Shown here: piece after piece, positions 47,251 through 64,000 of the stretch | Layout of the letters: the number at the start of each line of letters is the position of its first letter | Position numbering within the stretch: position 1 is the stretch's first letter | Source: an uncultured Cellulomonas sp. | GTDB lineage: Bacteria > Actinomycetota > Actinomycetes > Actinomycetales > Cellulomonadaceae | Assembly: GCF_947494015.1 (NCBI RefSeq) | Contig: NZ_CANLTL010000001.1 | Span: forward strand, 248,001-312,000 | Direction of reading: 5' to 3' | Length of the DNA stretch: 64,000 nucleotides | The notes under the pieces: model-generated | The model's input: only the letters and a program-made list of their open reading frames with translations | Databases searched by the model: none | What the model was told of the DNA's origin: nothing | Position numbers and translations under genes: made by a program

Positions 47251-48465
47251 ATGCCAACCTGTCGGGCCTGCGGGGACCGGGCCGAGCAGTTCCTGGACCT
47301 CGGGCGCCAGCCCCTGTCGGACGCGTTCCTGCGGCCCGAGGAGGTCGCTACCGAGTTCACCTACGACCTGACGGTGACGTGCTGCCAGGGGTGCGGCATG
47401 GTGCAGCTGGGCAGCGAGGTGCCGCGCGAGCGGATGTTCCACAGCGAGTACCCGTTCCGCACGGCGAGTTCGCACCGGATGACGCAGCACTTCCGAGCCG
47501 TGGCGGACCGGCTGGTCGCGCACAGCAGCACCGCGGACCCCTTCGTCGTCGAGGTCGGCTGCAACGACGGGACCATGCTGCGCCGGCTCGCGGAGACCGG
47601 CGTCCGCCACCTCGGCGTGGACGCCTCCGCGGACGCCGTGCGGGACGCCACCGCCGCCGGCGTGCAGGCGCAGTGCGCGTTCTTCGAGCTGGAGACCGCC
47701 CGCCGCATCGCCGCCGAGCACGGCCGCGCCGACGTCGTCTACGCGGCCAACACGATGTGCCACATCCCGTACCTGGACTCGGTGCTCGCCGGCGCCGCCG
47801 CCCTGCTGACCGACGACGGCGTCCTGGTCTTCGAGGACCCCTCGTGGGAGGACGTGTTCCGGCTCGCGTCGTTCGACCAGATCTACGACGAGCACTTCTA
47901 CCTGTTCTCCGCGACGTCGGTGAGCGCGCTCGCCCTGCGGCACGGGTTCCGGCTGGTCGACGTCGAGCACCTGGACGTGCACGGCGGGGAGCTGCGCTAC
48001 ACGCTGGCACGCTCGGGAGCCCGTGAGCCCGGGCCGGCGCCCGCGGCGCAGGTCGCACGCGAGCGGGCGCTCGGGCTGACCGACCCGGACGTCCTGGCCG
48101 GGTTCGCCGAGCGAGTGGCGGCCAAGCGGACCGCGCTGCTGGACCTGCTGCGGTCGACCCGGGCGCAGGGGCGCAGCGTCGCCGGCTACGCGGCGACCGC
48201 CAAGAGCGCCACGGTGCTCAACTACTGCGGCATCGGTCCGGACCTCATCCCGTGCGTCTACGACACCACGCCGGAGAAGCAGGGCCGGCTGACCCCGGGC
48301 ACCCACATCCCGGTGCTGCCGTTCCCGGACTCTCCTGACGACCTGCCGGACACGTTCGTGCTGTTCGCCTGGAACCACACCGCCGAGGTGCTCGACAAGG
48401 AGTCGGCCTTCAGGGCCGACGGCGGCCGGTGGATCCGGTACGTCCCGGACGTGGAAGAGGTCTGA
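47251..48465 (+). CDS. NDP-sugar C-methyltransferase (EvaC/TylC3-like)
   Basis: A 404-residue SAM-dependent enzyme. An N-terminal zinc-binding region (CRACGDRAEQFLDLG and CCQGCG) precedes the SAM domain (VVEVGCNDGTMLRRL), and a C-terminal SAM-MT-associated domain contains AGYAATAKSATVLNYCGI. This layout is that of 3-C-methyltransferases acting on 3-keto-2,3,6-trideoxysugars in vancosamine, mycarose and noviose pathways. First gene of a four-gene sugar cassette. Confidence 0.88.
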   Translation: MPTCRACGDRAEQFLDLGRQPLSDAFLRPEEVATEFTYDLTVTCCQGCGMVQLGSEVPRERMFHSEYPFRTASSHRMTQHFRAVADRLVAHSSTADPFVVEVGCNDGTMLRRLAETGVRHLGVDASADAVRDATAAGVQAQCAFFELETARRIAAEHGRADVVYAANTMCHIPYLDSVLAGAAALLTDDGVLVFEDPSWEDVFRLASFDQIYDEHFYLFSATSVSALALRHGFRLVDVEHLDVHGGELRYTLARSGAREPGPAPAAQVARERALGLTDPDVLAGFAERVAAKRTALLDLLRSTRAQGRSVAGYAATAKSATVLNYCGIGPDLIPCVYDTTPEKQGRLTPGTHIPVLPFPDSPDDLPDTFVLFAWNHTAEVLDKESAFRADGGRWIRYVPDVEEV

Positions 48466-48466
48466 C

Positions 48467-49966
48467 GTGGTCGACGCCGTGCTGGTCCCCGGGCAGGTCG
48501 AGCGGCCGGTCGAGCGGCCGGTCGGGCCGCAGGTCGCGTCGGGGGTGCCGGTCAGCCGGCCGCGAATGCCCCGGCCGAGGCCGGCCGGCCGGGCGGACGT
48601 CGTGGCCGCCACCCGCGACTGGCTGCGGTCGGTCCCGCCCCGGCTGCACGCGACCCCGACCCGGGTCCCGCTGGACGAGGTCGTCGGCTGGCTCACCGAT
48701 CCGCAGGCCGACGACATCCGGCACGGCACCGGACGCTTCTTCCGCATCATGGGCATCGAGGCCCACGTCGAGGTCGAGGAGCGGTGGAGCTGGACCCAGC
48801 CGATCATCGACCAGCCGGACGTGGGCGTCCTGGCCCTGGTCAGCCGGATGGGCCGCTCGGGGCTGGAGCTGCTCGTCCAGGGCAAGCCCGAGCCGGGCAA
48901 CCCCACCGGGCTCCAGCTGGCACCGACCGTGCAGGCGACGCGGAGCAACTACATGCGAGCGCACGGCGGCCGCCCGGTCCCGATGCTCGACGTCCTGCAG
49001 GCCGCGCGGCCGAGCGACGTCCTCGTCGACGTCCGGCAGTCCGAGCACGGGACCGTGTTCTTCCGCAAGCGCAACCGCAACATGGTCGTGCTCACCGAGC
49101 GCCCGCCGCAGGCCCCCGAGCACTTCCGCTGGCTCCGCCTCCCCGAGCTGCACCACCTGTTCCTCGCCGACGACCGGGTCAACATGGACACCCGCACCGT
49201 GCTGTCCTGCCTCCCGTGGGGACTGGTCCCCGTCGACCCGCACGACCACGACCCGGTGGTCGCCGCGCTGGCCCGCTCCGGCCGGGTCGGGTCGCCGAGC
49301 CGCCACACCCTGCAGGCGATCCTCAACTGGGTCACCGAGGTCCGGTCGAGCACGTACGTGCGGGTCGACGTGCGCCCGCTGCACACCCTCGAGGGATGGT
49401 CGCGGACCGCCGCCGGGCTGAGCCACGAGGACGACGCCTGGTTCGACGTGATCGGGGTCAGCGTGGAGGCCGCCGGGCGCGAGATCGACCGGTGGTCGCA
49501 GCCGATGATCGAGCCGCACGCCGACGGGACGCTCGGTCTGCTCGTCGCCCGCTTCGGGGACGTGCTGCACGTGCTCGTGCACCTGCGCACGGAGCCGGGC
49601 CTGGTGGACGCCGTGGAGATCGCACCGACGGTGCAGCACCGCCCGATGGAGCCCGCGGACCTCGCCAATCCCGGCACGCAGCGCCACCTGGAGCCGCTGA
49701 CCAGCGCCCCCGCGGACCGGGTGCTGTACGACCGGGTGCACTCCGACGAGGGCGGTCGGTTCTTCCGGTCGGCCAACCGGCACCTGATCGTCGAGGTGGA
49801 CCCGGACCCGGCCGTGGAGGGCCCGGGCTTCCGCTGGGTGACGGTGCACCAGCTCGAGGAGCTGCTGCGCCACAGCCACTACGTCAACCTCCAGCTGCGC
49901 AGCCTGCTCAGCTGCCTGCAGGCCGTGGGCACCATCGGGCGTGCGCCCGCATGGCGCACGGAGTGA
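48467..49966 (+). CDS. NDP-hexose 2,3-dehydratase (EvaA/TylX3-like)
   Basis: A 499-residue enzyme built of two homologous halves, as usual for the family. Compare QPIIDQPDVGVLALV with QPMIEPHADGTLGLLV, and LQLAPTVQATRSNY with VEIAPTVQHRPMEP. It removes the C2 hydroxyl from NDP-4-keto-6-deoxyglucose. It starts at a GTG one base after the preceding stop. The first 40 residues are Pro/Val/Arg-rich and may be untranslated or disordered. Confidence 0.9.
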   Translation: MVDAVLVPGQVERPVERPVGPQVASGVPVSRPRMPRPRPAGRADVVAATRDWLRSVPPRLHATPTRVPLDEVVGWLTDPQADDIRHGTGRFFRIMGIEAHVEVEERWSWTQPIIDQPDVGVLALVSRMGRSGLELLVQGKPEPGNPTGLQLAPTVQATRSNYMRAHGGRPVPMLDVLQAARPSDVLVDVRQSEHGTVFFRKRNRNMVVLTERPPQAPEHFRWLRLPELHHLFLADDRVNMDTRTVLSCLPWGLVPVDPHDHDPVVAALARSGRVGSPSRHTLQAILNWVTEVRSSTYVRVDVRPLHTLEGWSRTAAGLSHEDDAWFDVIGVSVEAAGREIDRWSQPMIEPHADGTLGLLVARFGDVLHVLVHLRTEPGLVDAVEIAPTVQHRPMEPADLANPGTQRHLEPLTSAPADRVLYDRVHSDEGGRFFRSANRHLIVEVDPDPAVEGPGFRWVTVHQLEELLRHSHYVNLQLRSLLSCLQAVGTIGRAPAWRTE

Positions 49967-50970
49967 GCGGAGCGCACCCGGTCGCCGTGCTCGGGGGCAG
50001 CGGCCTGCTGGGCAGCGCCGTCTGCCGGCGGTTCGCCGACGCCGGCCGGCCCGTCCGAGCGGTGTCCCGCAGCGGGTGGGGGGTTCCGGGGGGCGGCGTG
50101 CACGGCGTGCGGGCGGACGTCACCCGCCGCGCCGAGCTCGAGGCCGCCCTGATCGGTGCGCACACCGTGGTGGTCGCGGTCTCGCACCGCGCAGCCGGTG
50201 CGCAGGGCTGGCGGGTCGACGGGACGGGGCCCGAGCGCGGCGTCTACGTCGACGTGTGCGAGCACCTGGCGTACTGGGCCGGTCGGCAGCGCCGGCCGGT
50301 CGTCCTGCTGCACGCCGGCAGCTCGAGCCAGTCGGGCGGGTCACCGACCACGGCCTACGACGCCCTGAAGAGCCGCGGTGAGGCCCTGGTCCTGGGGGCG
50401 TCGTCCGGCGGCGTGGACGCGGTCGGCCTGCGGTTGAGCACCCTCTACGGTCAGCGTCCCGGCACCCCCGACACCGGTGTGGTGGCGACGATGATCCGCA
50501 CCGCGCTGCGCGGGGAGCCGCTGAGCGTCTGGGCCGACGGCGCGATGACCCGTGACCTGCTGTGGGCCGACGACGCCGCCGAGGCCTTCCTCGCGGCCGC
50601 CGCCCACGCGGGCGCGCTGGCCGGGCGGCCCTGGACGGTCGGCCACGGCCGGGCGCATGCGGTCGCGGACATCGCCGCGACCGTCGCCCGGGAGGTCGCG
50701 GCGGCCACCGGCCGCACACCCGTCCCCGTGCGGCGCACCGACCCTCCCCCGTGGGCGACCGGGCACGACCTGACCGGCCACGTCGCCGACCCGGCCGACT
50801 TCGTCCGGGCCACCGGCTGGCGCCCCCGCACCACCTGGCACGACGGCGTCCGGCGGCTCGTCGACGTCCTCGCCGCGCGGACCCTCCCGGGTGCGCCTGC
50901 GCCGGACGCCGTACCCGTCCCCCTACCCCTACCCCTACCGCCGGCCCCGGCCCCGGCCCCGGCCCCTTGA
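49951..50970 (+). CDS. NAD-dependent epimerase/dehydratase, probable NDP-sugar 4-ketoreductase
   Basis: A 339-residue extended SDR: VAVLGGSGLLGSAVCRRF at the N-terminus, then the catalytic region SSSQSGG ... TTAYDALKSRGEAL (YxxxK) and WADGAMTRDLLWADDAAEAF. By context it is the C4-ketoreductase of deoxysugar synthesis (EvaE-like). The ATG at 49951 or the GTG at 49963 (GTGA overlap with the previous stop) may be the start. The C-terminus is a Pro/Ala repeat tail. Confidence 0.82.
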   Translation: MAHGVSGAHPVAVLGGSGLLGSAVCRRFADAGRPVRAVSRSGWGVPGGGVHGVRADVTRRAELEAALIGAHTVVVAVSHRAAGAQGWRVDGTGPERGVYVDVCEHLAYWAGRQRRPVVLLHAGSSSQSGGSPTTAYDALKSRGEALVLGASSGGVDAVGLRLSTLYGQRPGTPDTGVVATMIRTALRGEPLSVWADGAMTRDLLWADDAAEAFLAAAAHAGALAGRPWTVGHGRAHAVADIAATVAREVAAATGRTPVPVRRTDPPPWATGHDLTGHVADPADFVRATGWRPRTTWHDGVRRLVDVLAARTLPGAPAPDAVPVPLPLPLPPAPAPAPAP

Positions 50971-50979: not shown

Positions 50980-52113
50980 ATGTCCGTCGACGTCAACCAG
51001 CACGATCCCGTCCGGGTCTGGGACTACCTGCCCGAGTACGAGGCCGAGCGCGCCGACCTGCTCCAGGCGGTCCAGACCGTGTTCGCCTCCGGCCAGCTGG
51101 TCCTGGGACCGAGCGTCGCGGCGTTCGAGCGCGAGTTCGCGGCGTTCCACGGCCGCCGGCACGCGATCGGCGTCGACAACGGCACCAACGCGCTGGTGCT
51201 GGCACTGCGGGCGGTCGGCGTCGGGCCCGGTGACGAGGTCGTCACGGTGTCCAACACGGCCGCGCCGACCGTCGTGGCGATCGAGGCGGTCGGCGCCCGC
51301 GCCGTGTTCGTCGACGTGGACCCCGACACCTACCTCATGGACGTCACCCAGCTCAGCGGGGCCGTGACCCCGCAGACGCGGTGCGTGCTGCCGGTGCACC
51401 TGTACGGCCAGGCGGTCGCGATGGAGCCCGTCATGGCCGTCGCCGCCGACCACGGGCTGTCGGTCGTCGAGGACTGCGCACAGGCGCACGGTGCGACCCG
51501 GAACGGGTCGGTCGTCGGCTCCCTCGGAGATGCCGCGGCGTTCTCGTTCTACCCCACGAAGGTGCTGGGCGCGTATGGCGACGGCGGCGCGGTGCTGACC
51601 GACGACGCCGCGGTGGACGCGTCGGTACGCCGGCAGCGGTACTACGGCATGGAGGACCGCTACTACGTGGTCAGCACGCCCGGCGGCAACTCCCGGCTGG
51701 ACGAGGTGCAGGCCGAGATCCTGCGCCGGAAGCTGGGCCGGATCGACCAGTACATCGCCGGCCGGCGGGAGATCGCCGACCGGTACGACCGCGCCCTGGC
51801 CGGGTCCGCGCTCACCCTCCCGGTCACCGCGCCGGGCAACACGCACGTGTACTACCTGTACGTCGTCCGGCACCCGGCGCGCGAGGAGATCCTGGCCCGG
51901 CTCGCCGAGCGGGGCATCGAGCTCAACGTCAGCTACCGCTGGCCGGTGCACACGATGTCCGGCTTCGCCCACCTGGGGGTGCCGGCCGGGTCGCTCCCGG
52001 TCACCGAGCGGCTCGCCGACGAGATCTTCTCCCTGCCGATGTACCCGTCGCTGCCGGTGGACCGGCAGCGACGGGTCGTCGACGAGCTCACCGACGTGCT
52101 GGACCGGGTCTAG
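50980..52113 (+). CDS. DegT/DnrJ/EryC1/StrS sugar aminotransferase
   Basis: A 377-residue PLP enzyme. [33 protein letters not shown] and the PLP lysine in [16 protein letters not shown] are canonical. It aminates an NDP-keto-sugar; with the 2,3-dehydratase and C3-methyltransferase, C3 amination (EvaB-like) is most likely. Its TAG stop shares the palindrome CTAG with the convergent LanKC gene. Confidence 0.92.
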
Positions 52114-54782
52114 CTGCGCCGAACAGGTGCAGGTCCGAACAGGTGCAGGGGCAGGTCCTGGCCGGCTCGGCCGGTCAGGACCCGGTCGAGCACGGCCAGC
52201 ACGCCGGCCGCCCCGGTGGCCAGGTCGCAGGACTGGCGCAGCAGCACGTCCCCCAGGAACCCCAGCCCCTGCTCACCGCGCACCTCCGCGATCGCCAGCG
52301 CCGGGGCGTGGGCGGCCAGCGTCGCACCGACCGCCGCCCGCCCCGGTCGTAGCGTCGTGCCGACCAGGAGCTCGCCGCTCCGTCCGCGCAGCAGCCCCGG
52401 GATGAGCCGGACCGAGGTGGTGCCGCGGTCGGCGACCGTGTCCAGCACGGGGGCGAGAGCCGGGTCCGGCTGCCGGGCGAGCAGCATCCGCAGAGCGAGC
52501 GCGACGCCGCCCGCCTCCGCCACCGCCGCACCGGGCACCGGTCGGCCGTCCGGTGCCGCGGCGTCGTCCGGTCCCCCGCCGCCGGGCAGCAGCCCGAACG
52601 CGGACAGGTCGGAGGTGATCGCCGTCCGTGCGGCGGTCAGCAGGACCGGGTCCGCGGTGAGGTCGTGCAGGGCGAGCAGGAAGACGGCCTCGCCGGACGG
52701 TCCCCGCAGCAGACCCTGGGCGGGCCGCCCGGCCGGCCCGCGCGCCGGCTCGGCCGCCCGCCGGCCCGTCGGCTGGTCCGCCCGCTGGTCCGCCCGCTGG
52801 TCACCCGGGTGGTCCGCGGCCAGCAGCCGGTCCGCGACCTCCCGCGCCGCGTCCAGGTGCTCACCGGACCCGGTGCGGGCGGCGAACCAGGCCAGGGTCG
52901 CCCCCAGACCGGCCAGCCCGGAGAACAGGCTGCGGTCCCCGGTGCGCTCGACGGCGGCGGGCAGGCCGGCGGCGAGCGAGCGCCCGGCGTCCTGCGCACC
53001 GAGCGACTCCAGCGCGTAGGCGAGGCCGGCGGCGCCGTCGTGCAGGCCGACGGGCAGCAGGACGGCGCGCCGGGAGGCCTCGACCAGCCAGTCGACGTGC
53101 CCCGCCGGGACCTCGACACCGGCGTCCCGCAGCGCCAGCAGCACGCCGGCGGCGCCGTACGCCAGTCCCAGCCCACCGGCGGGGTGGGCGAACTGGGCGA
53201 CGTCGCCGGGGAACAGCCGGTCGGACCGCTCGGGCGTGGCCTGTGCGCAGATCCATCCCGCGACCGCGTCCCGGACCGCCGGCCACGTCGCCTCCTCGGC
53301 GGTGCGGACCGACGGCCGGGCCACCGGTGGCGCGTCGGCCGCGGAGCCGTCCCCGCCCAGGCCGGTCGCGGAGCGATCGACGCCCATGTCGCGCCGGACC
53401 AGGCCGTCGTAGTCGGCCGGTACCGGGAACCGTGCGTGCACGAGGCTCAGCACCGCCGTCAGGGCCTCGGGATCCCAGGCGAGCGGAACGGTGGACTCGG
53501 GCAGGAGGACCGCCAGCCGCAGGCAGCCCAGCGCGTAGCGGTCGAGCCGGCGACCCCGGGACCCCGGCGGCGCGCGGAACCCGGGGGCGGCGAACACCTG
53601 CTGCGCGTTCTCGGCGACGGGGGTCGCCGTCTCCAGGTCGATCAGGCGGACCGAGTCGTCGTCCTGCACGAGGATGTTGCCCGGGTGCAGGTCGCCGAAC
53701 ACGACCCCGGCGGCGTGCATCTCCTCGATCCCCCGGTCCACCTGCGCGACGATCGCCAGCACACGCCGGGTGTACTGCTCCAGCTCGGTGGGGTCCGCGG
53801 AGCCGTGCAGCATCGGGTGGTGCCGCCCGACGAAGTCGAGCAGGTTCAAACCCTCGACGAACTCGCGCGCCAGGAACTCGTGCTCGTGCCCGTGCACGTG
53901 CGCCACCAGCCCCGGCACGATCGACACGTCGGCGAGCTGCTCGAGCGCCCACAGCTCCCGGCGCTGGCGGGCGACGGCGTCCCGGTCGCCCTCGTCCAGC
54001 CCGGCGAACGGGCGTGCCTCCTTCAGCAGCACGGTCCGGCCGGTGGGCCGGTGCGTCGCCCGGTAGACGCCGCCGCCGTTGGAGAAGTACAGCGCCCGCT
54101 CCACCGCGAACGGGAAGTCGGCGAGCACCCCCGCCTGGCGGGCGGCCAGGGCCTCGTGCAGGCAGTCGGGGACCGGCGCCCACGCCGGCGGGCGGAACGA
54201 CGGTGTGCGCCGGTCCTCCACGAGCCGGCCTTCGGGGTCGCGGATGCAGTGCAGCACGCGGCCGCCGTCGGTCTCGACGACCTCGCTGACGAACGCCCCG
54301 TACCGCACGTACAGCGGACCGCCACCCCACCGCAGGTCGCTGAGGATGTAGGGGCCCCGCTCGCCCTCGAGCCGGGTGCCGAGCTCGCGCAGGGTCTTCT
54401 CCAGCACGGCGTCGTCCGGCGGGTAGATGGTGATGAACTTGCCGCTGCCGCCGCGGTGGGCGTCCTTCGCGTTGCGCCGCCGCAGGACCGCCGGTCCGCT
54501 GAGCACCTTCAGCTGGAGCTGGTGGGCCACGCAGTACTCGATCACCACGTCGAGGACGCGCTCGGCGTTGTCCGGGCACGCCGACACGTGGATCTTCCAG
54601 CCCTGCCGCACGAGCGGGACCCCGGTCGGCACCAGGTGGGTCCACTCCGGCTCCCGCCGGCGCTCCCAGCCCGGCGGCACCGGCCCGGCGAGCGCCGGGA
54701 ACGTGGGCTGGTGGACCTGTGCCGGTCCCAGGTCGTAGAAGGGCGTCCCGCCGTGGCAGAAGGCCAGGTACTGACGATTCAC
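52110..54782 (-). CDS. class III lanthipeptide synthetase LanKC
   Basis: An 890-residue three-domain enzyme. Residues 1-225 are the lyase domain ([10 protein letters not shown] start). Residues 230-500 are the kinase, with Lys254, the catalytic loop [12 protein letters not shown] (Asp364, Asn369) and metal Asp382. About 560-890 is a LanC-like cyclase whose zinc-ligand positions are not Cys/Cys/His (LLRGPSGE where CHG is expected), as in class III. It phosphorylates and eliminates Ser/Thr of a leader-bound precursor. The GTG start overlaps the upstream protease stop. It is the last gene of the RiPP operon. Confidence 0.9.
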
Positions 54783-56428
54783 TCGAACCCCGCTGCGATG
54801 TAGGTGAGATAGAGCCACTGCCCGAGCGGGCGCAGCCCGGCGTCGACCACGGCGGCGCCGTCGTCCGGCCGGCGACCGCCGTCGAGGCGCACCTCCCAGG
54901 CCTGTGCCGGGAGGGTGACGTCGCTGGTCACGGTGACCGGCAGGAACGCCGCGGCGGGCGCGTCCACCAGTCCGTCGACCGGGCCGACGACCTGCCCGGT
55001 GGCCCGGGTGCGGGTCAGCACCAGCCCTGCCTGCGCGACCTCGACCGGCGCTCCGGGGTCGATCCGGGGCACGCCGACGCCCTCGGGGACCGCGAAGAGG
55101 AGGCGGCCGTCGACGGCGACGTACGCCCCGGGCACCGCGAGCGGGAGCCGGACGGTGGTCAGGCCCACGGCGACCACCGCCGCGACCGCGGTGAGCGCCG
55201 CCGCGGTCCGCCCGGGACGGGCCCCGTTGCGGCGACCGGCGGCCACCAGCCGGACCGCGCCCTGCACGACGAGAGCGGCCAGGTACACCGCGCCGACCAC
55301 GAGGACGGCCACCCCGAGCGGCCCGGTCCTGCTGAGCAGCCCGACGTACAGGCCCAGGACCGTCAGGGCGAGGTACCAGGGGAACAGGACGCTGGCCCAC
55401 CCGAACGCGGCACCCCAGCGCGGCACGCCCGCCGGGCGGACCGGGCGGCCGCCGCCGAGCAGCGCCCAGGCGGTCGTCGCCCGGGCCCAGTCGATGCACA
55501 GCGCCCGCAGGTTGGGCCGGTCCAGGTGGGTCATGAGCGCGATGTACCCGTCGAGCTTGACCAGCGGGACCAGGTTGAGCAGCCCGACGGCGTAGCTGCC
55601 CGCGGCGAACACCAGCAACCAGTCCCGCACCGGGCCGGGCACGGGCAGACCGGCCGCCAACGCGCTGACCGCGCCGATGACCGCCTGGGTCAGCACCCCG
55701 GCCAGCGCCACCCGCACGCGCTGCGCCGGCCGCGGCAGGCGCCAGGCGTCCGACACGTCGCAGAACATCGCCGGCATGAGGTAGAAGAGCATCCAGCCCA
55801 TCCGGCTCGGGCGGCCGCCCTCGTGCACCAGCGCGACACCGTGGGACACCTCGTGCACGGTCGTCGCGGCGCCCGCGGCCAGCACCAGCAGGACGACGGA
55901 CTGCCAGGGCACCGGTGTGCTCAGCGCCTCGACCAGTGCACCGCCCTGCATCACCAGGGCCAGCAGCCCGAGTGCGACCACCGCGACGACGACGCTGCGT
56001 GTGCGGTGGTCCGCGAGCGACGGGACGACCCGCGCCAGCCGCTGCATCCCCCGGCCGGGCCGGACCAGGGTGAGCTGCACCGACAGCGGCGGGACGAACA
56101 CCACGCGCCGCGCCGTGGCCGCCGGTCGGGTGCGCCCGTCGTCGAGCAGACCCGCGCTGCCGAGCCGGTCCACCGCCAGCTCGACCGCCTCGGGCGACCA
56201 GGGCGGCCCGAGGCGGTCGGCGAGCGTGGCCCGGTCTGCGTGCCCGTCCAGGCCGGCCGCGAGCCGGCCCAGGTCCGCACCCACCCGCAGGTACCCCGCA
56301 CCCCGGCGGATGACCCAGGGCGCGCCCGGCTCCCCGGGCGCGATCACCTCGACGCCGGCAGCCAGCGCCGGCCGGTCCAGCAGGGCAGGGTCGGTGGCTG
56401 CTCGCGGGGAGCCGGCCCGGGCGGCCAT
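54779..56428 (-). CDS. M50-type intramembrane metalloprotease with PqqD-like N-terminus
   Basis: A 549-residue membrane protein. Residues 30-100 look like a PqqD/RRE winged helix (WVIRRGAGYLRVGADL, LDG, LADRLGPPW, LGSAGLL), the fold that binds RiPP leaders. Membrane helices follow with the zinc motif HEVSH (192-196) and the second site NLVPLVKLDGY. The C-terminal part is extracytoplasmic and beta-rich. In daptide clusters such a protease is thought to remove the leader. ATGA/GTGA overlaps link it to its neighbours. Confidence 0.85.
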   Translation of the reverse strand: MAARAGSPRAATDPALLDRPALAAGVEVIAPGEPGAPWVIRRGAGYLRVGADLGRLAAGLDGHADRATLADRLGPPWSPEAVELAVDRLGSAGLLDDGRTRPAATARRVVFVPPLSVQLTLVRPGRGMQRLARVVPSLADHRTRSVVVAVVALGLLALVMQGGALVEALSTPVPWQSVVLLVLAAGAATTVHEVSHGVALVHEGGRPSRMGWMLFYLMPAMFCDVSDAWRLPRPAQRVRVALAGVLTQAVIGAVSALAAGLPVPGPVRDWLLVFAAGSYAVGLLNLVPLVKLDGYIALMTHLDRPNLRALCIDWARATTAWALLGGGRPVRPAGVPRWGAAFGWASVLFPWYLALTVLGLYVGLLSRTGPLGVAVLVVGAVYLAALVVQGAVRLVAAGRRNGARPGRTAAALTAVAAVVAVGLTTVRLPLAVPGAYVAVDGRLLFAVPEGVGVPRIDPGAPVEVAQAGLVLTRTRATGQVVGPVDGLVDAPAAAFLPVTVTSDVTLPAQAWEVRLDGGRRPDDGAAVVDAGLRPLGQWLYLTYIAAGFE

Positions 56429-57192
56429 CACCCGACGACGTCTCGCCTGCGCAGCAGCACCGCAGCGAGCGCCGCCGCGGCGGCCAGCCACGCCACCGCG
56501 GCCGTGTAGGCCAGCGGAAGGCCCAGCAGCCCGTCCTTGCCGTCGAGGTAGATGGCGCTCAGCACGATCGAGAACGTCCAGCTGAACCGGTCCGGCGAGA
56601 TGGTCTGCAGCAGCGGCTCGATCATCAGCGTCGTCACCAGCAGGACCACGATCGTGACCACCTGGTTGCGGAAGACCCAGGCCAGCAGGGACCCCCACAG
56701 GGCGCCGAGCACGCTGACCGCGAAGACGCCCACCAGGGTCAGCCACAGCTCCCGGCTGACGGTCGGGGCCACGTCCAGGACGCCCAGCGACACCCAGGTG
56801 CTGACCACCGAGCCGACCACCGCGACCAGGCCGTACGCGGCGCCGATCCCGGCGGCGACGAGCACCTTGGCGGCGAACAGGCGGGTCCGGTCACCGGCCA
56901 GCAGCACGCTGCGGGTCACGGTGTGGGCGGAGTACTCGCGGGTGACCGCGATCGCCGCCAGCAGGCTCGTGACGAGATGCATCTGGAACCACTGCCGGGC
57001 GACCACCGCGGTGAGCGCGGCGGGCTCCACCGGGGCGGCGCCGGCGGGCACACCCTCCGGCGGCGACACCTCGAGCACCCCGAACGAGTACGCGATGTAG
57101 GAGCACCACAGCAGTGCGATCGCCCCCATCACCCACCACGTCCTGCCCGTCCACACCTTCTGCCACTCCGCCCGGAGCACCCGGCCGGTCAT
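56428..57192 (-). CDS. ABC-2 type transporter permease
   Basis: A 254-residue protein with six membrane helices and the ABC-2 pattern TREYSAHTVTRSVLLAGDRTRLFAAKVL. It pairs with the adjacent ATPase (four-base overlap) to export or give immunity to the peptide. The ATG at 57192 is chosen by the overlap; a longer frame is shadow of the ATPase tail. Confidence 0.88.
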   Translation of the reverse strand: MTGRVLRAEWQKVWTGRTWWVMGAIALLWCSYIAYSFGVLEVSPPEGVPAGAAPVEPAALTAVVARQWFQMHLVTSLLAAIAVTREYSAHTVTRSVLLAGDRTRLFAAKVLVAAGIGAAYGLVAVVGSVVSTWVSLGVLDVAPTVSRELWLTLVGVFAVSVLGALWGSLLAWVFRNQVVTIVVLLVTTLMIEPLLQTISPDRFSWTFSIVLSAIYLDGKDGLLGLPLAYTAAVAWLAAAAALAAVLLRRRDVVG

Positions 57193-58040
57193 CGGACCCC
57201 GCCCACCGTCGCCGCGGAGCCTGCGGTCGAACCCGCGACCGGGCCTGCGACCGGGCCTGCGACCGGGCTCGGGGACGAGGTCAGGGACGAGGGCGGGGGC
57301 GAGCTCGGGGACGAGCTCGGCCGGGGCTCGACGAGGTCGAAGAACGCCTCCTCCAGCCGGCGGCTGCCGCCGCCGGTCAGGTCGGCCAGGGACCCGGAGT
57401 ACCGCACGGTGCTCTGCAGGATGACGACGTCCTGGACCGTCTGCTCGACCTCGGCCAGCAGGTGGCTGGACACGATGACCGTGCGGCCGTCGGCGGCCAG
57501 CCGCTGCAGCAGGTCCCGCAGCCACCGGATGCCGTCCGGGTCCAGACCGTTGGCCGGCTCGTCGAGGATGACGACCTCCGGGTCGGCCAGCAGCGCGACC
57601 GCGAGGTCCAGCCGCTGCCGCATGCCGGTGGAGTAGGCGGACACCGCCTTGCGCTCGGCTCCGGACAGCCCCACCAGGTCGATGACCTCACCGACCCGGG
57701 ACCCGGGCAGCCCGAGCATGGTCGCCCAGACGCGCAGCGCCTTCGCGCCGCTGACGCCCGGCGGCTGGCCGTCGCCGTCGAACGTCGTGCCGACCCGGCG
57801 CGGACCGTCCGGCAGCTGCGGGTACGGGTGGCCCAGCACGGTCGCGGTGCCGGAGGTCGGGCTGGTCAGCCCGAGCATGATGCGCAGGGCCGTCGTCTTG
57901 CCCGCGCCGTTGCGGCCGAGCAACCCCAGCACGCGACCCGTGCGGGCCTCGAAGCTCACGTCGTCCAGCGCCGTGGTGTCCTTGTACTGCTTGGTCACGC
58001 GGTCCAGCACGACGCTCGACCCGTTCTGCCTGCCACTCAT
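57189..58040 (-). CDS. ABC transporter ATP-binding protein
   Basis: About 283 residues: Walker A GRNGAGKTT, signature YSTGMRQRLDLA, Walker B VVILDEPANGLD, H-loop VSSHLL. The last 50 residues are a Ser/Pro then AGPVAG-repeat tail that is unusual for this family. I prefer the ATG at 58040, which has GGAGGA six bases upstream; an ATG at 58058 is also in frame. It lies after the RiPP precursor genes, behind a strong hairpin. Confidence 0.9.
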   Translation of the reverse strand: MSGRQNGSSVVLDRVTKQYKDTTALDDVSFEARTGRVLGLLGRNGAGKTTALRIMLGLTSPTSGTATVLGHPYPQLPDGPRRVGTTFDGDGQPPGVSGAKALRVWATMLGLPGSRVGEVIDLVGLSGAERKAVSAYSTGMRQRLDLAVALLADPEVVILDEPANGLDPDGIRWLRDLLQRLAADGRTVIVSSHLLAEVEQTVQDVVILQSTVRYSGSLADLTGGGSRRLEEAFFDLVEPRPSSSPSSPPPSSLTSSPSPVAGPVAGPVAGSTAGSAATVGGVR

Positions 58041-58071
58041 CCCGTTCTCCTCCGCCATGCGGGTCCGTCGG

Positions 58072-58106
58072 GGCCTGTGGGGCGGCGCAGGGCCGCCCCA
58101 CAGGCC
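58072..58106 (-). terminator. 15-bp perfect hairpin between precursor genes and exporter
   Basis: GGCCTGTGGGGCGGC (58072-58086) pairs without mismatch with GCCGCCCCACAGGCC (58092-58106) around a five-base loop. It lies between the second precursor gene and the ABC ATPase. It probably acts as a partial terminator or 3' stabiliser, giving more precursor mRNA than exporter mRNA. Confidence 0.75.
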
Positions 58107-58160
58107 GTCACACGAGCACGGACCCCTCGGACGGGCCGTGCCTGGGCGTTCCTGGCTCGA

Positions 58161-58322
58161 TCAGGTGATCGCGCTGACCGCGATCGCGCTGGCCAGGTAG
58201 GCCGCGCCGCCAGCCGAGCTGACGGCGACGCCGGCGCTGAACGAGTCCCAGAATCCGGGCGCCTCGAGGTCCTCCAGCTCCTGCAGGTCCAGCTCCAGCG
58301 GAGCCAGATCGGTGTTCGGCAT
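58161..58322 (-). CDS. RiPP precursor peptide 2 (daptide/class III lanthipeptide type)
   Basis: A 53-residue peptide. The leader has APLELDLQELEDLEAPG, and the core region begins near GFWDSFSAG and ends in SAIAVSAIT. The LxLQ-type motif is that recognised by class III LanKC enzymes. The C-terminal Thr is the residue daptide enzymes convert to a diamine. It has no Cys; the part after EAPG holds six Ser and one Thr. GGAGGGAAG precedes the ATG. It is too short for routine gene calling but conserved with the next gene. Confidence 0.85.
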   Translation of the reverse strand: MPNTDLAPLELDLQELEDLEAPGFWDSFSAGVAVSSAGGAAYLASAIAVSAIT

Positions 58323-58369
58323 GTCTTCCCTCCCCTCCGGGTGCGATCCGTCGTCGGTCGGTCAGGCGC

Positions 58370-58534
58370 TCACGTGATGGCGCTGACCGCCAGGGCGGAG
58401 CCGATGTAGGTCACGGCGCTGCTGGCGACCGCGCCCAGCGAGAACCCGACCACGTCGATCCAGCCCGGGGCCTCGAGCTCCTCGAGCTCCTGGAGACCGA
58501 GCTCCAGGGGTGCTGCACTCGCGTCGATGCTCAT
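58370..58534 (-). CDS. RiPP precursor peptide 1 (daptide/class III lanthipeptide type)
   Basis: A 54-residue peptide. The leader has APLELGLQELEELEAPG, and the core region begins near GWIDVVGFS and ends in SALAVSAIT. It shares the leader motif, the EAPG junction and the C-terminal AVSAIT with the second precursor, but the middle of the core differs. It has no Cys. AAGGAGGG precedes the ATG. It lies directly between the dehydrogenase gene and the second precursor. Confidence 0.87.
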   Translation of the reverse strand: MSIDASAAPLELGLQELEELEAPGWIDVVGFSLGAVASSAVTYIGSALAVSAIT

Positions 58535-58569
58535 GTCGTCCCTCCTTCCTCTCTCGTTCAGACCTGCTC

Positions 58570-59814
58570 TCACCGGGTGGTGAGGACAGGCGTCGTCCCG
58601 GCCGTGGTCACGGCCGGGAATCCGTGGTCCGGGCGGGGCGCGGGCGCGCACCGCTCGAAGAGCGTGGTCAGCTCGTCCAGGCGCACCCCGGCGAGCATGG
58701 GCAGTCCGGCACCCCAGCGCCGACGGGCCCGGCGGGCGGTCCGGTCGGCGTCCTCGGCGACCGCAAGCCGTGCCGGCAGCCCCCAGCGGTCGAACAGCGC
58801 GCCCAGCCCGGGGCCGGGGTCGGCGGGCAGGTCCGGGGTGTCGCCCGCTGCCGTGCGCATGGCCGCCCACAGGGCCGCCGCCCGGTCCGCCGACCCGAGC
58901 GCGGGTACCGCCGCGCACTGCGCCCACAGCACCGGGAGCAGCACCGCGAGCGCCTCGGGCTTCGCGCAGCCGGCCGACCGGGCCAGCTCTGTCGCGAGGA
59001 ACCAGGTCCGGCTGGCGAACGGATCGCGTCCCTCGTTGAGCCACTGGTCGTGGCTGCGGCCGCTGATCCGGGCGACCTCCAGCCGGACGTCGTCATCGGC
59101 CGGCGCGCCCCGCCGGTCGGCGGCCGCGGCGACGTCCCCGAGCTGGACGAGCCGCCGCACGAGCACCTCGGTGATGCCGTCCTGCACGGGGGCCGGGCGT
59201 GACGTGCCGATGTAGGGCGCGGTCACGCGGCCGAGGATCTCGACGACGGCAGCCGTCACCTGCCCCGGCGGCAGGCCACGGGTCGCCGCCGGGTCCAGCA
59301 GCGCCAGGTCGGGCTGCAGGGCGTCGCCCTGCACGAGCTGCGTGCCCTGCGGGCCGCCGAAGCAGGCGAACCGGCTGGCCTCGCTGCCGGTCCCGAGCGT
59401 GGTGGGCACCGCGACCAGCGGACGGCGCGCGGCCGTCGACGGCGGCAGCGGCACCCACCCGCACCGCTCGCGGGGCTCGATGCGCTGCCGCACCCCGGGC
59501 TCGCCGGCGCAGGCCGCGTAGAGCTTCGCCCGGTCGATGACGCTGCCGCCGCCCACCGCGACGACCGCGTCCGGCAGCGGCCGGGCCAGGGCGGCGTCCA
59601 GCCAGTCCAGCGGCCGGTCGGGTGTCGCTGGGACGAACGGCTGCTCCGTCACGGCGACGCCGTCCCGGCGCAGCAGGTCGGCCACGGTCCGGCTCGCGGC
59701 CGCCCGGGGGTCCGTCCAGAGGACGACCGTCCGCGCGTCCTTGGCGGCCAGCCACGCCGGCAGCCCACCCAGGCCGAGCATGGTCGCGGACTCGCGCACC
59801 ACCCGCCACGTCAC
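58570..59814 (-). CDS. mpaB: iron-containing alcohol dehydrogenase-fold oxidative decarboxylase, daptide MpaB-like
   Basis: A 414-residue Fe-ADH-superfamily protein. The nucleotide-binding GGGS motif (VVAVGGGSVIDRAKLYA) and PTTLGTGSEAS are clear. The usual metal ligands (DALTHxxE and the later His motifs) cannot be recognised: the region reads QVTAAVVEILGRV, and CAKPEALAVLLP replaces a His-containing motif. In daptide synthesis the homologue oxidises and decarboxylates the C-terminal Thr to a ketone. It overlaps the aminotransferase gene by four bases and directly precedes the precursors. Confidence 0.82.
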   Translation of the reverse strand: MTWRVVRESATMLGLGGLPAWLAAKDARTVVLWTDPRAAASRTVADLLRRDGVAVTEQPFVPATPDRPLDWLDAALARPLPDAVVAVGGGSVIDRAKLYAACAGEPGVRQRIEPRERCGWVPLPPSTAARRPLVAVPTTLGTGSEASRFACFGGPQGTQLVQGDALQPDLALLDPAATRGLPPGQVTAAVVEILGRVTAPYIGTSRPAPVQDGITEVLVRRLVQLGDVAAAADRRGAPADDDVRLEVARISGRSHDQWLNEGRDPFASRTWFLATELARSAGCAKPEALAVLLPVLWAQCAAVPALGSADRAAALWAAMRTAAGDTPDLPADPGPGLGALFDRWGLPARLAVAEDADRTARRARRRWGAGLPMLAGVRLDELTTLFERCAPAPRPDHGFPAVTTAGTTPVLTTR

Positions 59815-61106
59815 GCCGCGTCACCCCGCGCCGCCGCGCCCAGGAAGGACGCCATCCCGTCGGCGACCCGCGACAGCAGCTCCGTGACCTCGTCCGCGGT
59901 GTAGACCAGCGCCGGCACCAGCTGGATGCCGGCCGGCCCCGGCTGGACGACGGCGCCGGCGGCCAGGACGTGCCGGACCACCGCGGGCACGTCGCCGGGT
60001 GCGAGCACGTCGCCGTCCGGCCCGCGCAGGGTCAGCCCCCGGAAGCAGCCGCGCCCCGTGACGCCGGCCAGCCACGGCTGCGCGGACAGCTCGGTCAGGC
60101 CCTCGTCCAGCGCGGCCGCCACGGCGCGGCCCGCGCCGACCAGGTCCAGGTCGCCCATCCGGTCGATCACCGCCAGGGCCGCCGCGCACGCCATCGGTGT
60201 ACCGGCCTGCGTCTCGGCGTGCACGACCGTCGCGTCGGCGCGGGTCAGCGCCCCGGCGACACGGTCGCCGATCAGGACCGCGGACGCGGCCGCGGTGCCG
60301 TTGGTCAGCGCCTTGGACACCAGCAGCAGGTCGGGGCGCGCCGGCCACCGGTCGGACGCGAACGCCTCCCCGGTGCGGCCGAACCCGGTGGCCACCTCGT
60401 CGGCGACCAGCAGCACGTCGTGCTGGTCGCGCAAGCGGACGAGCTCGGCGACGTACTCCGCGGAGAGCTCCACCGCGCCCGTGCCCAGCACGGGCTCGAC
60501 GACGACGGCCGCGACCGTGTCGGCGTGCCGGTCCAGGAAGCCGCGCAGCGCGGTGACGTCGTTGACCGGCAGGTGTCGCACCAGGCGGGTGTCGACGCCG
60601 TAGAGCCCCTGGCCCAGCGCCTCGCCGGTCAGCGCATGCGCCCCGAAGGTCAGGCCGTGGTAGCTGCCCTGCAGGCCCACCACCACCCGCCGGCGGCTGC
60701 GCCCGGCCACCGCCTGGTACTGGCGGGCGACCTTCATCGCGAGGTCGTTCGCCGACCCGCCGGAGGTGGCGAACATGACCCGGCGGTACCAGTGGGGCCC
60801 GCACAGCTCGACCAGGGCGTCCGCCGCGGCGCGGGCGTAGCGGTGCTCGCGACGGAACAGGGACAGGTAGGACGCCTCGCGCAGAGCGGCGACGACCGCG
60901 GACTCCACCGCGGGGTCCCCGTACCCGAGGTTGACGTTCCACAGGCCGCTGGTGCCGCACAGCACGGTCCGCCCGTCGGCGAGTGCCACCCGGGTGCCGC
61001 GGGCCGACACCGCGCACAGGTCGTCCTGCCCGTGCTGGGACGGCGGGAGCAGGGCCGGCCACAGGGCCGATCGAGCCGCACCTGGCCGGGCTGCGGTGAC
61101 GGTCAT
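59811..61106 (-). CDS. mpaC: class III PLP aminotransferase, daptide MpaC-like
   Basis: A 431-residue enzyme of the omega-aminotransferase fold. GTSGLWNVNLGYGDP, SGGSANDLAMKVARQY, DEVATGFGRTG and the PLP lysine in SKALTNGT are present. In daptide synthesis it converts the C-terminal ketone left by MpaB to an amine. The ATG at 61106 overlaps the methyltransferase stop. Confidence 0.87.
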   Translation of the reverse strand: MTVTAARPGAARSALWPALLPPSQHGQDDLCAVSARGTRVALADGRTVLCGTSGLWNVNLGYGDPAVESAVVAALREASYLSLFRREHRYARAAADALVELCGPHWYRRVMFATSGGSANDLAMKVARQYQAVAGRSRRRVVVGLQGSYHGLTFGAHALTGEALGQGLYGVDTRLVRHLPVNDVTALRGFLDRHADTVAAVVVEPVLGTGAVELSAEYVAELVRLRDQHDVLLVADEVATGFGRTGEAFASDRWPARPDLLLVSKALTNGTAAASAVLIGDRVAGALTRADATVVHAETQAGTPMACAAALAVIDRMGDLDLVGAGRAVAAALDEGLTELSAQPWLAGVTGRGCFRGLTLRGPDGDVLAPGDVPAVVRHVLAAGAVVQPGPAGIQLVPALVYTADEVTELLSRVADGMASFLGAAARGDAA

Positions 61107-62068
61107 GACGGCACCGCCTCGAGCAGCTCGAGCGCGTGCCGGGTCCGGACGTCCGAGCGGACCCGCTGCACCCGGACGACCCGCAGGCCCGCCCGCTCCA
61201 GGTCGGCCCGCAGGCGCTCGACCGGCAGCACCCGGACCGTGGAGGTGAACACCTCGAGGGGTCCGGCACCATCGGCACCGTCGGCACCATCGGCACCATC
61301 GGCACCGTCGGCGGGGGCCGGGAAGACCGTCACGGTCCGCTCCGGTGCGCCCACCGGCCAGTACTCGTGGACGACGCCACCATCGGGCAGCGGCGTGACC
61401 TCCTCGGCGTCGTCGGCCGCGGTCCCGGCGGCGTCGTCCGCGGCGGTGCCAGACCTGCCGTGCGCCCCGTCCCCACCGGCGCCGCCGCGCACGGCGGTGG
61501 ACAGCAGCAGCACGCCGTCCGGCGCCAGGTGCCGCCGCACCCGGTCGAGCATCCGGGCGCGGCCGTCGTCGTCCAGCAGGGACGTCGAGCTCGCGCCGAC
61601 CACCACGGTCGTGAAGCGCCCGCGGACCCGGAACCGCGTCATGTCGGCGCGCACGACCCGGCATCGCGCGCCGCGGCCGGACGGCAGGGCCGCCAGCTCG
61701 GCCCGCAGGATGGCCAGCATGGGGTCCGACAGGTCGATCGCCGTGACGTCGAACCCGGCCGCGACCAGGGGCAGCGTGAGCCGGCCGGACCCCGCGGCGA
61801 GCTCCAGCACCGGTCCCGGGCGGCTGCGGACCGACGCCAGGACCTCCCGCACCTCGGAATGGTCCCCGCGGACCAGCTCGTGGTAGCGCTGCGCGCCGCC
61901 GCCGTCGTACAGGTCCAGGACCACCGCCCGGTCGCCCAGCTCCGCGAGCCGCTGCGCGGCACGGCCCTGCACCCGCTGGGCGCGGTCGCGGCGGGCGGCG
62001 ACGACCGCGGCGCTCATCGCCGCGGACCCCGACGCCGCCACCGCGGCCGCCGCGCCGGCGATGCTCAC
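61103..62068 (-). CDS. mpaM: SAM-dependent methyltransferase, daptide MpaM-like
   Basis: A 321-residue class I methyltransferase with motif I VLELAAGSGRLTLPL and VTAIDLSDPMLAILRAEL. An unusual GAD repeat (four to five copies) and an acidic insert lie in the C-terminal half. By context it dimethylates the new C-terminal amine. The GTG start at 62068 overlaps the upstream stop (GTGA). The first 20 residues are an Ala-rich segment. Confidence 0.83.
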   Translation of the reverse strand: MSIAGAAAAVAASGSAAMSAAVVAARRDRAQRVQGRAAQRLAELGDRAVVLDLYDGGGAQRYHELVRGDHSEVREVLASVRSRPGPVLELAAGSGRLTLPLVAAGFDVTAIDLSDPMLAILRAELAALPSGRGARCRVVRADMTRFRVRGRFTTVVVGASSTSLLDDDGRARMLDRVRRHLAPDGVLLLSTAVRGGAGGDGAHGRSGTAADDAAGTAADDAEEVTPLPDGGVVHEYWPVGAPERTVTVFPAPADGADGADGADGADGAGPLEVFTSTVRVLPVERLRADLERAGLRVVRVQRVRSDVRTRHALELLEAVPS

Positions 62069-63153
62069 GCGCCCACCGCCAGCGGGCGCGGGGCGGCGGC
62101 GATCCCGACGGCGGCGAGCTGGTCCGCGGCCTGGGCCGCCGACGTCGCCGGGACCCACTCCGCGGCCGCGGCGACCGACCCGGTCACCAGGACCGCCTCC
62201 ACCGCCGCGGCCGCGTCCCGGTTGAACCGGAACGTCCGGCGGCGCGCAGGGTCGCGCAGGAACGCCTCCTGCGCGGTCCAGGCCAGGACCACCCCGGACG
62301 CGCCGGGCGCACCGGACGCGCCGGCGGTCCCGGTCGTCCGGGGCGGGCCGGCGGTGTCGGGCGTCGCCGCGTGCAGCCCGGGGACGAGGGTGTGGCCCCA
62401 TCCGGAGACCCGGGCGCCGGTGACCCCACGCACCGTGAGGTCGCGCAGCGCGTCGACCGCATCGAGGTAGCCGCGCAGCCACGGCCGGTCGAGCAGGGCG
62501 CGGTCCCGCACGGTCGCCGGGACGGCGTCGCCGAGGCAGACGGCGCACGGCGCGGCGGCGGCGTCGTTCAGCGCCTGCCACCGGCCCTCGAGCGCGTCCA
62601 GCCCGTCGCCGACCGTGCCGAGCGGCGAGCCGGTCGGCGACGTCGTCACCGTGCCGTCGGGCCGGACGAACACGCGCCGACGCGGACCGTCCCCGGACGC
62701 GTCGCCACCGAGTCCCGGCAGGTCGGCGAGTCGGGCGGCGGGGGCCAGCAGGAAGTCCGGGAAGACGCCGTCGGCCCGGGCCCGGTCCGCATCCGCGACG
62801 AAGGCCGCGAGGTCCTCCTCGCCGAAGACGCGCACGAGGGTCGGTCCGATCACCGACAGGTACGCGCTGGTGCTGTAGTCCTGGGTGAACAGGTAGAACT
62901 CGTCGCAGACCGTCGCCTCGCTGCCCGACTCGGTCAGCTCGCCGGTGTACGTCACGGCGCCGTCCGTGGCGGCACCGTCCCCCTCGGGCACCAGCACGAC
63001 GGTCCGGTCGGTGACCAGGCCGGACGCCACGGCAGGCGCCAACGCGGACCGGTCGGCCAGCACCGCCACCCCGGTCCCCGGCCCGGTGGCGGCGCCACCA
63101 CGGCCCTCGCCCCACACCAGCAGGGCGTCGAAGAGGTCAGTGAGCTGCGGCAT
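62065..63153 (-). CDS. probable daptide RiPP-recognition protein (MpaD-like)
   Basis: A 362-residue protein without a confident catalytic motif. Notable features are an aromatic CDEFYLFTQDYSTSAYL segment, a CAVCLGD pair and a long variable Gly/Ala loop. Its place between the LLM oxidoreductase and the methyltransferase matches the recognition protein of daptide clusters, which presents precursors to the tailoring enzymes. The assignment rests mainly on synteny. The ATG at 63153 has GGGAG upstream and overlaps the preceding gene by 17 bases. Confidence 0.6.
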   Translation of the reverse strand: MPQLTDLFDALLVWGEGRGGAATGPGTGVAVLADRSALAPAVASGLVTDRTVVLVPEGDGAATDGAVTYTGELTESGSEATVCDEFYLFTQDYSTSAYLSVIGPTLVRVFGEEDLAAFVADADRARADGVFPDFLLAPAARLADLPGLGGDASGDGPRRRVFVRPDGTVTTSPTGSPLGTVGDGLDALEGRWQALNDAAAAPCAVCLGDAVPATVRDRALLDRPWLRGYLDAVDALRDLTVRGVTGARVSGWGHTLVPGLHAATPDTAGPPRTTGTAGASGAPGASGVVLAWTAQEAFLRDPARRRTFRFNRDAAAAVEAVLVTGSVAAAAEWVPATSAAQAADQLAAVGIAAAPRPLAVGA

Positions 63154-64000
63154 GGAGCACTCCCGTCGTGGATCTGCTGTCGGCCGGGACCGCGGCAGGA
63201 CGCCGCTCCCGGGCCAGGTAGGCGTGGTGGATCGCCTGCGCCTCGGCCAGTGCGGCCGGCACCCCGCGCAGGGCACAGCTCGCCGCGAGGTTCAGGACGA
63301 CCTCGTCCACCCCGGCGGCCTCGAACCCGGCCAGGCCGGCGGCGACCGTGTCCGGGTCACCGTGCAGGAAGCCACCGCCCTCGGCGAGCGCGACGGCCAT
63401 GTCCCGGAAGCCCGAGCGCGGCAGCCGGACCCCGGCCTGCTCCAGCATCGAGCGGTAGTGCGGGCCGCGCAGGTGCCGGCCGTGGGCGGCCATCACGAGC
63501 TGCGCCAGGTCGGCGTCCGGCCCCTCGACGGCGACGCCGATCATCGCGGCCACCCGTGGTGTGGCGCGCCCCGCGCCTGCGGCGCCCTCCGCGAGCGCCT
63601 GGGCGATCGGGCCGGCGAGGTAGCCCGCCGGTGTCATCCAGGTGATGGCGACGTCGGCGCACTCCCCGGCCACCCGGGCCATGCCCGGACGCAGCACGCC
63701 CGCACCGACCTCCACCGGATGGCTCGGCGGCCCGGTCAGCGCGCCCTCGCAGTGCAGCTCGGCGCCGCGCACGGACACCGCCCGGCCGGCGACCAGCTCG
63801 CGGACCACGCCCAGGTACTCACGCATGACGTCGAGCGGGCGGGGGTACGGCGCACCGAGCAGCGCGGCCTGGAACGCCCGGGAGCCGGGCCCGAAGCCGG
63901 CGACCACGGGCATCCCGGTGACCTCGGCCAGCGACCGGGCCTGGACCGCGGCGTCGAAGGGGTGCCGCAGCGGGGTCAGCGTGACGCCGATGCCTGCGGG
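63137..64000 (-). CDS. LLM-class flavin-dependent oxidoreductase, 5' end outside window
   Basis: The frame stays open to the right edge (visible part 287 residues), so the start is missing. The luciferase-like pattern is GVTLTPLRHPFDAAVQARSLAEVTG, then VVAGFGPGSRAFQ, then PVEVGAGVLRPGMARVAGECADVAITW. It uses FMN or F420. It overlaps the next gene by 17 bases, so it belongs to the RiPP operon. It may hydroxylate or oxidise the peptide, or act on the sugar; unknown. Confidence 0.85.
   Translation of the reverse strand, partial: PAGIGVTLTPLRHPFDAAVQARSLAEVTGMPVVAGFGPGSRAFQAALLGAPYPRPLDVMREYLGVVRELVAGRAVSVRGAELHCEGALTGPPSHPVEVGAGVLRPGMARVAGECADVAITWMTPAGYLAGPIAQALAEGAAGAGRATPRVAAMIGVAVEGPDADLAQLVMAAHGRHLRGPHYRSMLEQAGVRLPRSGFRDMAVALAEGGGFLHGDPDTVAAGLAGFEAAGVDEVVLNLAASCALRGVPAALAEAQAIHHAYLARERRPAAVPADSRSTTGVLHAAAH

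Follow-up and report, generated by a model that had tools for sequence, protein, structure and literature searches.

Gene content of the locus

We analysed a 64,000-nucleotide stretch of a contig from an uncultured Cellulomonas sp. (NZ_CANLTL010000001.1, positions 248,001 to 312,000; hereafter the window), the end of which carries an operon for daptides, ribosomal peptides with a dimethylated diamine (Dmp) in place of a C-terminal Thr. The operon lies on the minus strand and reads, 5' to 3', as a GT2-family glycosyltransferase (GT2), a LanJ-like reductase, DapB, DapM, DapD, DapC, the precursors A1 and A2, an ATPase, a permease, DapP and a class III lanthipeptide synthetase (LanKC) (Table 1). 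Neighbouring reading frames share 1 to 17 bases, save at the two precursors, which are set off by gaps of 35, 47 and 102 bases. The operon extends past the window edge, and the 5' end of LanJ and the whole of GT2 were read from the genome; GT2 is the first operon gene and overlaps LanJ by 4 bases. On the plus strand, a set of four amino-deoxysugar genes (47251-52113) converges on the operon tail and ends at the LanKC stop.

The five daptide enzymes (RRE protein, iron-containing alcohol dehydrogenase (Fe-ADH) homologue, aminotransferase, methyltransferase and metalloprotease) each exceed their NCBIfam equivalog cut-off. The leaders carry ELEELEAP and ELEDLEAP and both precursors end in Thr, as daptide clusters require. 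As judged by its enzyme set and precursors, the locus is a daptide gene cluster of the Actinomycetota type.

Table 1. Genes of the operon and of the convergent sugar set in window numbering, with scores in bits over the curated cut-off of the NCBIfam or Pfam family
Feature	Position	Strand	Score/cut-off
GT2 family glycosyltransferase, wholly past window	64168-65262 (G000:C1:312168-313262)	-	PF00535 73.5/23.3
LanJ (LanJC-like), F420-dependent luciferase-family reductase	63137..64171 (numbering continued; first 171 bases past window)	-	PF00296 84.8/27.9
DapB, RRE leader-binding protein	62065..63153	-	NF041823 333.5/150
DapM, N-methyltransferase, GTG start	61103..62068	-	NF041820 242/175
DapD, class III aminotransferase	59811..61106	-	NF041821 573/450
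DapC, Fe-ADH-fold oxidative decarboxylase	58570..59814	-	NF041822 333/300
Precursor A1, core after Pro GWIDVVGFSLGAVASSAVTYIGSALAVSAIT	58370..58534	-	NF041808 31.3/25
Precursor A2, core after Pro GFWDSFSAGVAVSSAGGAAYLASAIAVSAIT	58161..58322	-	NF041808 29.9/25
ABC exporter ATPase	57189..58058	-	PF00005 90.5/25
ABC-2 permease	56428..57192	-	PF12730 39.4/27
DapP, intramembrane metalloprotease (HEVSH), predicted leader removal	54779..56428	-	NF041824 395/300; PF02163 23.7, under 27.2 cut-off
LanKC, class III, GTG start; lyase, kinase and cyclase-like regions	52110..54782	-	NF038151 808/575; PF25816 251/27; PF00069 50/31.7
DegT-family sugar aminotransferase, stop overlapping LanKC stop	50980..52113	+	PF01041 361/19.8
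NAD-dependent epimerase-family protein, read as sugar ketoreductase	49951..50970	+	PF01370 98.8/20.9
NDP-hexose 2,3-dehydratase	48467..49966	+	PF03559 420.7/25
Sugar C-methyltransferase	47251..48465	+	PF08484 166.7/23.5; PF08421 69.5/31.3

An earlier first-pass annotation, made from the window alone, had described an overlapping minus-strand operon with daptide enzymes, two Thr-ending precursors, an exporter, a metalloprotease and a LanKC, and the family scores and coordinates bear this out. It had rightly seen a hybrid of daptide enzymes with a class III LanKC, but the LanJ, GT2 and sugar genes had escaped it. It had also taken the combination to be undescribed. This we reject, since daptide clusters with LanKC/LanJC are already in print (Ren 2023, PMC10036551; Dommaraju 2025, PMC12670281), and the pairing of daptide enzymes with LanKC found here is a further member of that published combination. 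The co-occurrence in genomes that the annotation proposed to look for is evident in the survey below.

Survey of daptide loci

The daptide_RRE family was sought in overlapping samples of the class (394 genomes), of Streptomyces (the genus of G281; 392 genomes) and of the order (396 genomes), and exceeds its cut-off in 17, 24 and 12 of these, respectively. Within the window's genus it is found in one of five genomes, its own, and in none of the four genus mates; every other matching genome of the order sample falls outside the window's family. The neighbourhood comparison comprises 49 loci plus the window, hence 50. Two loci with weak RRE matches and no daptide genes (L056, L057) were excluded, as were a second partial match in G515, a fragment in G536 and a weak match in G1098. 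Precursors were located by a motif regular expression that misses odd ones, and five of the 50 loci yielded none. One locus (L047, 14034-15610) holds a tandem array of seven daptide precursors, with identical cores in two pairs.

LanKC, LanJ and the core serines

The LanKC matches NF038151 over model positions 1-832 of 833, in keeping with a full-length class III synthetase, and among solved structures the closest to it in sequence are LanKCs such as 8sao. When aligned with 32 further LanKCs from daptide loci, it retains 116 near-invariant positions and deviates at 7; the equivalent alignment of LanJ with 33 others reveals 55 kept and 6 departures. The best NCBIfam match of LanJ, TIGR03564, scores 115.5 bits, under the cut-off of 234, while PF00296 exceeds its own. 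A CofD gene for the F420 cofactor is present in the genome (306/257 bits), and PF05147 has no match anywhere in it. A scan of genome contigs with the LanKC protein returned no relatives from 403 pattern matches.

Across the survey, LanKC occurs in 33 of the 50 daptide loci, LanJ in 34 and both in 32, so that a LanJ homologue accompanies LanKC in 32 of 33 cases. The three loci with an unpaired gene (L041, L060, L082) all run to contig ends; the one with LanKC and no LanJ is L082, whose contig ends just past its DapB. A further locus, L065, has a LanKC-like gene at the operon end (from 18101, plus strand, 471 bits) and a second ahead of the operon (7546-9183, minus strand, 184 bits), with LanJ further on.

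The precursors follow the same division. The leader motif L.[LM]Q is found in 92 of 93 precursors from loci with LanKC/LanJ vs 1 of 28 from loci without, and the distinct cores contain on average 4.17 Ser (0/66 Ser-free) vs 0.74 (14/27 Ser-free). Class III precursors carry LxLQ, and LanJC is named in the same paper (Walker 2020, PMC7268733). Both traits would be required if LanKC recognises the class III LxLQ motif and LanJ acts on Ser. We note that LanKC changes only twice on the DapD tree: the motif and Ser pattern is strong, and the independent events are few.

Because a LanJ reductase is encoded in the operon, core Ser is expected as D-Ala (-16 Da each) and not as lasting 18-Da losses. By analogy with homologues, from which both the Dmp and the Ser-to-D-Ala steps are known, the core Ser should thus end as D-Ala through LanKC and LanJ. 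Neither core A1 nor core A2 contains the Cys of a class III lanthipeptide, and Cys is found in 0/93 distinct daptide cores of the survey. Therefore no lanthionine forms, we reject a lanthionine product, and the product is not filed as a lanthipeptide.

The glycosyltransferase and core tyrosine

A relative of the window GT2 (tblastn, at least 100 bits) is found in 17 of the 50 daptide loci. In the Streptomyces sample, which was not chosen by daptide context, GT2 occurs at E<=1e-20 in 16 of 392 genomes, and 14 of these 16 are among the 24 that carry daptide_RRE (Fisher's test, 1e-17). Residues D94-D95 and E177-D178 of the window GT2 are invariant across the three sequences aligned, its own among them. 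A scan of 84,980 species genomes, seeded with an alignment of three GT2 sequences, gave 194 relatives, and 80 of these were kept; the scan relies on two peptide patterns, one of which the GT2 of G715 lacks, and is no census. Among the 36 best loci (at least 116 bits against the window GT2), 30 have a daptide aminotransferase. Two more (L100, L106) belong to clusters already in the count, seen from their other side, three (L110, L113, L114) lie on short contigs with a piece of LanKC or M50 protease, and the contig of L107 begins at GT2, followed by sugar genes. From L127 onward the scores are at most 94 bits, and none of the ten loci listed shows daptide-specific genes.

Presence of GT2 coincides with Tyr in the core. 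Within loci that have LanKC/LanJ, Tyr is present in 26 of 30 distinct cores with GT2 vs 1 of 36 without, or, counted by locus, in 15/15 vs 1/18. Visual inspection of a heuristic gene list for L063, the sole GT2-negative one of these loci with a Tyr core, shows no obvious glycosyltransferase of a different type. Of the 36 best scan loci, 26 yielded precursors by regular expression; after removal of nine repeats of counted clusters, all 17 further GT2 clusters have at least one Tyr core. A looser expression reveals Tyr cores in L122 to L126 as well. No precursors were obtained from L107, L110, L113 and L114, in the last case even with the looser expression. Trp and Thr show no such split, Trp being near-universal (97% of distinct cores with GT2, 100% without). 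In the loci with LanKC/LanJ, Asp is also higher with GT2 (47% vs 3% of distinct cores), for which we offer no explanation.

In the GT2 tree, eight sugar-linked GT2s of Streptomyces form one clade (100/100). Two Streptomyces clusters, those of Streptomyces sp. SID5910 and A108 (L093/L106 and L100/L101), have two GT2 paralogues each: the copy in the sugar operon and the copy that follows LanKC fall in different clades. By analogy with cacaoidin, a disaccharide is possible there.

The amino-deoxysugar genes

Of the 50 loci, exactly three (the window, L040 and L074) have all four sugar genes, each time with GT2, and the full set including a 3,5-epimerase is found in 7 of the 36 best scan loci. As L074 and L093 are the same locus, the sugar set and GT2 occur together in nine clusters (seven scan loci, L040 and the window), eight of them in Streptomyces, and a daptide operon is in view in all except L107. 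Named strains in which the whole gene set can be seen are Streptomyces amritsarensis MTCC 11845 and Streptomyces sp. ISL-1, TSRI0107, A108, SID5910 and JJ38. The arrangement differs: in the seven Streptomyces clusters that show both, GT2 is the first gene of the sugar operon and is transcribed away from LanJ, whereas in the window it leads the daptide operon, towards whose 3' end the sugar genes run. Recurrence of the same set in two arrangements is our main reason for joining the sugar genes and GT2 to the daptide operon.

The vancosamine/epivancosamine pathway (EvaA-E) comprises five enzymes, among them a 2,3-dehydratase, a 3-aminotransferase, a C-methyltransferase and a ketoreductase. The window has four of the five by family, and the 5-epimerase is not local. 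An RmlB gene lies elsewhere in the genome (463/365 bits). The predicted sugar would be a dTDP-3-amino-2,3,6-trideoxy-3-C-methylhexose of the vancosamine type, with a stereochemistry that is not readable from sequence.

The cassette is flanked by molybdate transport genes (window 43935-45638; modA by NCBIfam, the permease taken as modB). Homologues of modA and modB stand side by side in the genus mates G002, G003 and G004, all without the cluster; an empty-site comparison with these three finds the modA/modB neighbours kept, but no clean junction. Past the operon lies a protein (66140-68548, amidase-like by eye) whose C-terminal portion, some 180 residues long, is found again many times in the genome, with 31 matches (e.g., C1:209619-211769).

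Proposed biosynthesis and alternative products

From gene content, family membership and co-occurrence, we infer the following order of events. DapB would bind the ELExLEAP part of the leader, and LanKC, presumed to recognise the LxLQ motif that overlaps it, would phosphorylate and then eliminate Ser residues of the core, with one Thr perhaps included, to give dehydro residues, which LanJ with F420H2 would reduce to D-Ala. DapC and DapB would convert the C-terminal Thr to a ketone by oxidative decarboxylation; DapD would aminate the ketone and DapM dimethylate the amine to give Dmp. The plus-strand genes, with RmlB and a presumed RmlA, would make the dTDP-sugar, which GT2 would attach to the single core Tyr. 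Finally, DapP would cut the leader off after Pro and the ABC pair would export the product. On the assumption of this cleavage site, a Dmp end and conversion of every Ser, the predicted [M+H]+ is 2885.67 for A1 and 2791.53 for A2 in sugar-free form, and 3028.76 and 2934.62, respectively, with a single C7H13NO2 sugar (143.09 Da).

We therefore propose, with somewhat more confidence than doubt, that the cluster makes two glycosylated daptides with a Dmp end and D-Ala. Peptides with the amine end and D-Ala are the most likely part of this reading, and their pairing has been reported; a rare amino sugar on daptides is probable and is not reported in the literature searched. In broader terms, the balance tips slightly towards a daptide subfamily, spread over at least two actinomycete genera, that is tailored three times: by Dmp, by several D-Ala installed by LanKC/LanJ, and by a vancosamine-type branched amino-deoxysugar on core Tyr, with the GT2 family marking Tyr as the acceptor. 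The result would be a linear helical peptide with a second basic centre in mid-helix.

Several observations weigh against a link between GT2, sugar and Tyr. The GT2 locus L120 showed one core (looser expression), and it has no Tyr. On the DapD tree only two well-supported independent pairs of LanKC loci bear on the GT2-Tyr link, too few for significance; averaged across 200 pairings, 1.9 are in agreement, with none opposed. Tyr is also found in 12 of 25 distinct cores from loci with neither LanKC nor GT2, and Tyr alone is therefore no predictor. Two of the 16 Streptomyces GT2 relatives (G715, G765) lie away from daptide clusters. The branch of the window GT2 is long and its placement uncertain, membership of the sugar-linked clade being neither supported nor rejected (approximately unbiased test, p 0.455), and the nearest named GT2 families, all under cut-off, are mostly enzymes of cell-surface polymers. 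A homologue of the sugar aminotransferase (E<=1e-100) occurs in 62 of 391 Streptomyces genomes, and the daptide-linked ones (G281, G541) rank only 30th and 31st among the places listed. As it is so common, we rejected this gene as a marker specific to daptides; the cassette seems to have been drawn from a shared pool, and sequence alone does not link it to daptides. Lastly, the 3,5-epimerase present in the Streptomyces clusters is missing from the window cassette, with two copies elsewhere in the genome; the sugar may thus be of the D series or use these other copies.

One alternative is a plainer product with Dmp and D-Ala and no sugar, of the kind made by the sca cluster, with GT2 and the sugar genes serving a cell-surface glycan or another metabolite. 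The sca and tfDap precedents, the wide spread of the sugar aminotransferase and the 17 of 33 LanKC loci that have LanJ without GT2 speak for such a product. GT2, however, starts the operon by an overlap, GT2 and the four-gene sugar set recur in the eight Streptomyces clusters in the other arrangement, and no other natural-product genes are seen by eye beside the cassette in the heuristic gene list, most of whose genes were not family-scanned. We consider a sugar-free product unlikely, yet the strongest of the alternatives. Less likely again is attachment of the sugar elsewhere than Tyr (to Ser, Thr, Trp or the Dmp end), or a different cellular sugar of which the cassette supplies only part. 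NAI-112 is N-glycosylated on Trp (PMC8068269), and 12 of the 15 survey loci with LanKC and GT2 are without the cassette; but Trp is near-universal regardless of GT2, whereas Tyr splits sharply with it. The first-pass annotation had expected a product bearing both modifications, in which LanKC leaves dehydrated or lanthionine residues beside the daptide end. Its daptide end is expected here too, and hominicin, which it named as a possible precedent, does carry Dmp and dehydrobutyrines (PMC10036551); the 116 near-invariant positions kept by LanKC also speak for such a product. Lasting dehydration is nevertheless very improbable given the LanJ of the operon, the CofD of the genome, the near-constant pairing of LanJ with LanKC and the Cys-free cores.

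If the proposed glycosylated daptides are indeed made, ribosomal peptides can bear amino-deoxysugars otherwise known from polyketides and glycopeptide antibiotics, attached by a GT2 mostly found with daptide clusters. Daptide mining would also gain two cheap predictors: an LxLQ/LxMQ leader would point to D-Ala, and the presence of both GT2 and a core Tyr to glycosylation.

Comparison with known systems

Daptide clusters with LanKC/LanJC pairs and with glycosyltransferases among the ancillary genes have been described (PMC10036551). The main text of that paper mentions glycosyltransferases twice and does not use the word "sugar", and "glycos" does not occur in the main text of Dommaraju 2025 (PMC12670281). 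We found no report of a glycosylated daptide in the literature searched (titles and abstract openings, with supplements and most subscription papers outside the search), which is no proof of absence.

The sca cluster of Streptomyces capuensis NRRL B-3501 resembles the window in its daptide enzymes and LanKC/LanJC. When expressed, it gave a product with a Dmp end and five Ser-to-Ala conversions, with D-Ala detected in hydrolysates by Marfey's method (PMC10036551). In contrast to the window, the section consulted on sca speaks of neither a sugar pathway nor glycosylation, and the two are likened by description only. The tfDap cluster of Thermobifida fusca, from which TfDapKC and TfDapJ have been described, likewise has DapBCDMP, a transporter, DapKC and DapJ (PMC12670281). 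It differs by a YcaO protein (TfDapY), and a glycosyltransferase is unmentioned in the main text.

Hominicin, from Staphylococcus, shares the Dmp end and lanthipeptide dehydratase chemistry, but retains its dehydrobutyrines, has a dimethylated N-terminus and comes from a Bacillota cluster (PMC10036551). Cacaoidin, a class V lanthipeptide (lanthidin), differs from the proposed product in its lanthipeptide ring, its AviMeCys end, its sugars (rhamnose and 6-deoxygulose) and the lack of a daptide end (PMC8068269). It resembles the window, by description and not by a GT2 sequence comparison, in combining D-amino acids and an F420-dependent oxidoreductase with a Tyr O-glycoside and GT2-family enzymes (PMC8068269). 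Because cacaoidin bears this glycoside and has GT2 enzymes in its cluster, Tyr O-glycosylation is possible in a D-amino-acid-rich ribosomal peptide such as the one proposed here.

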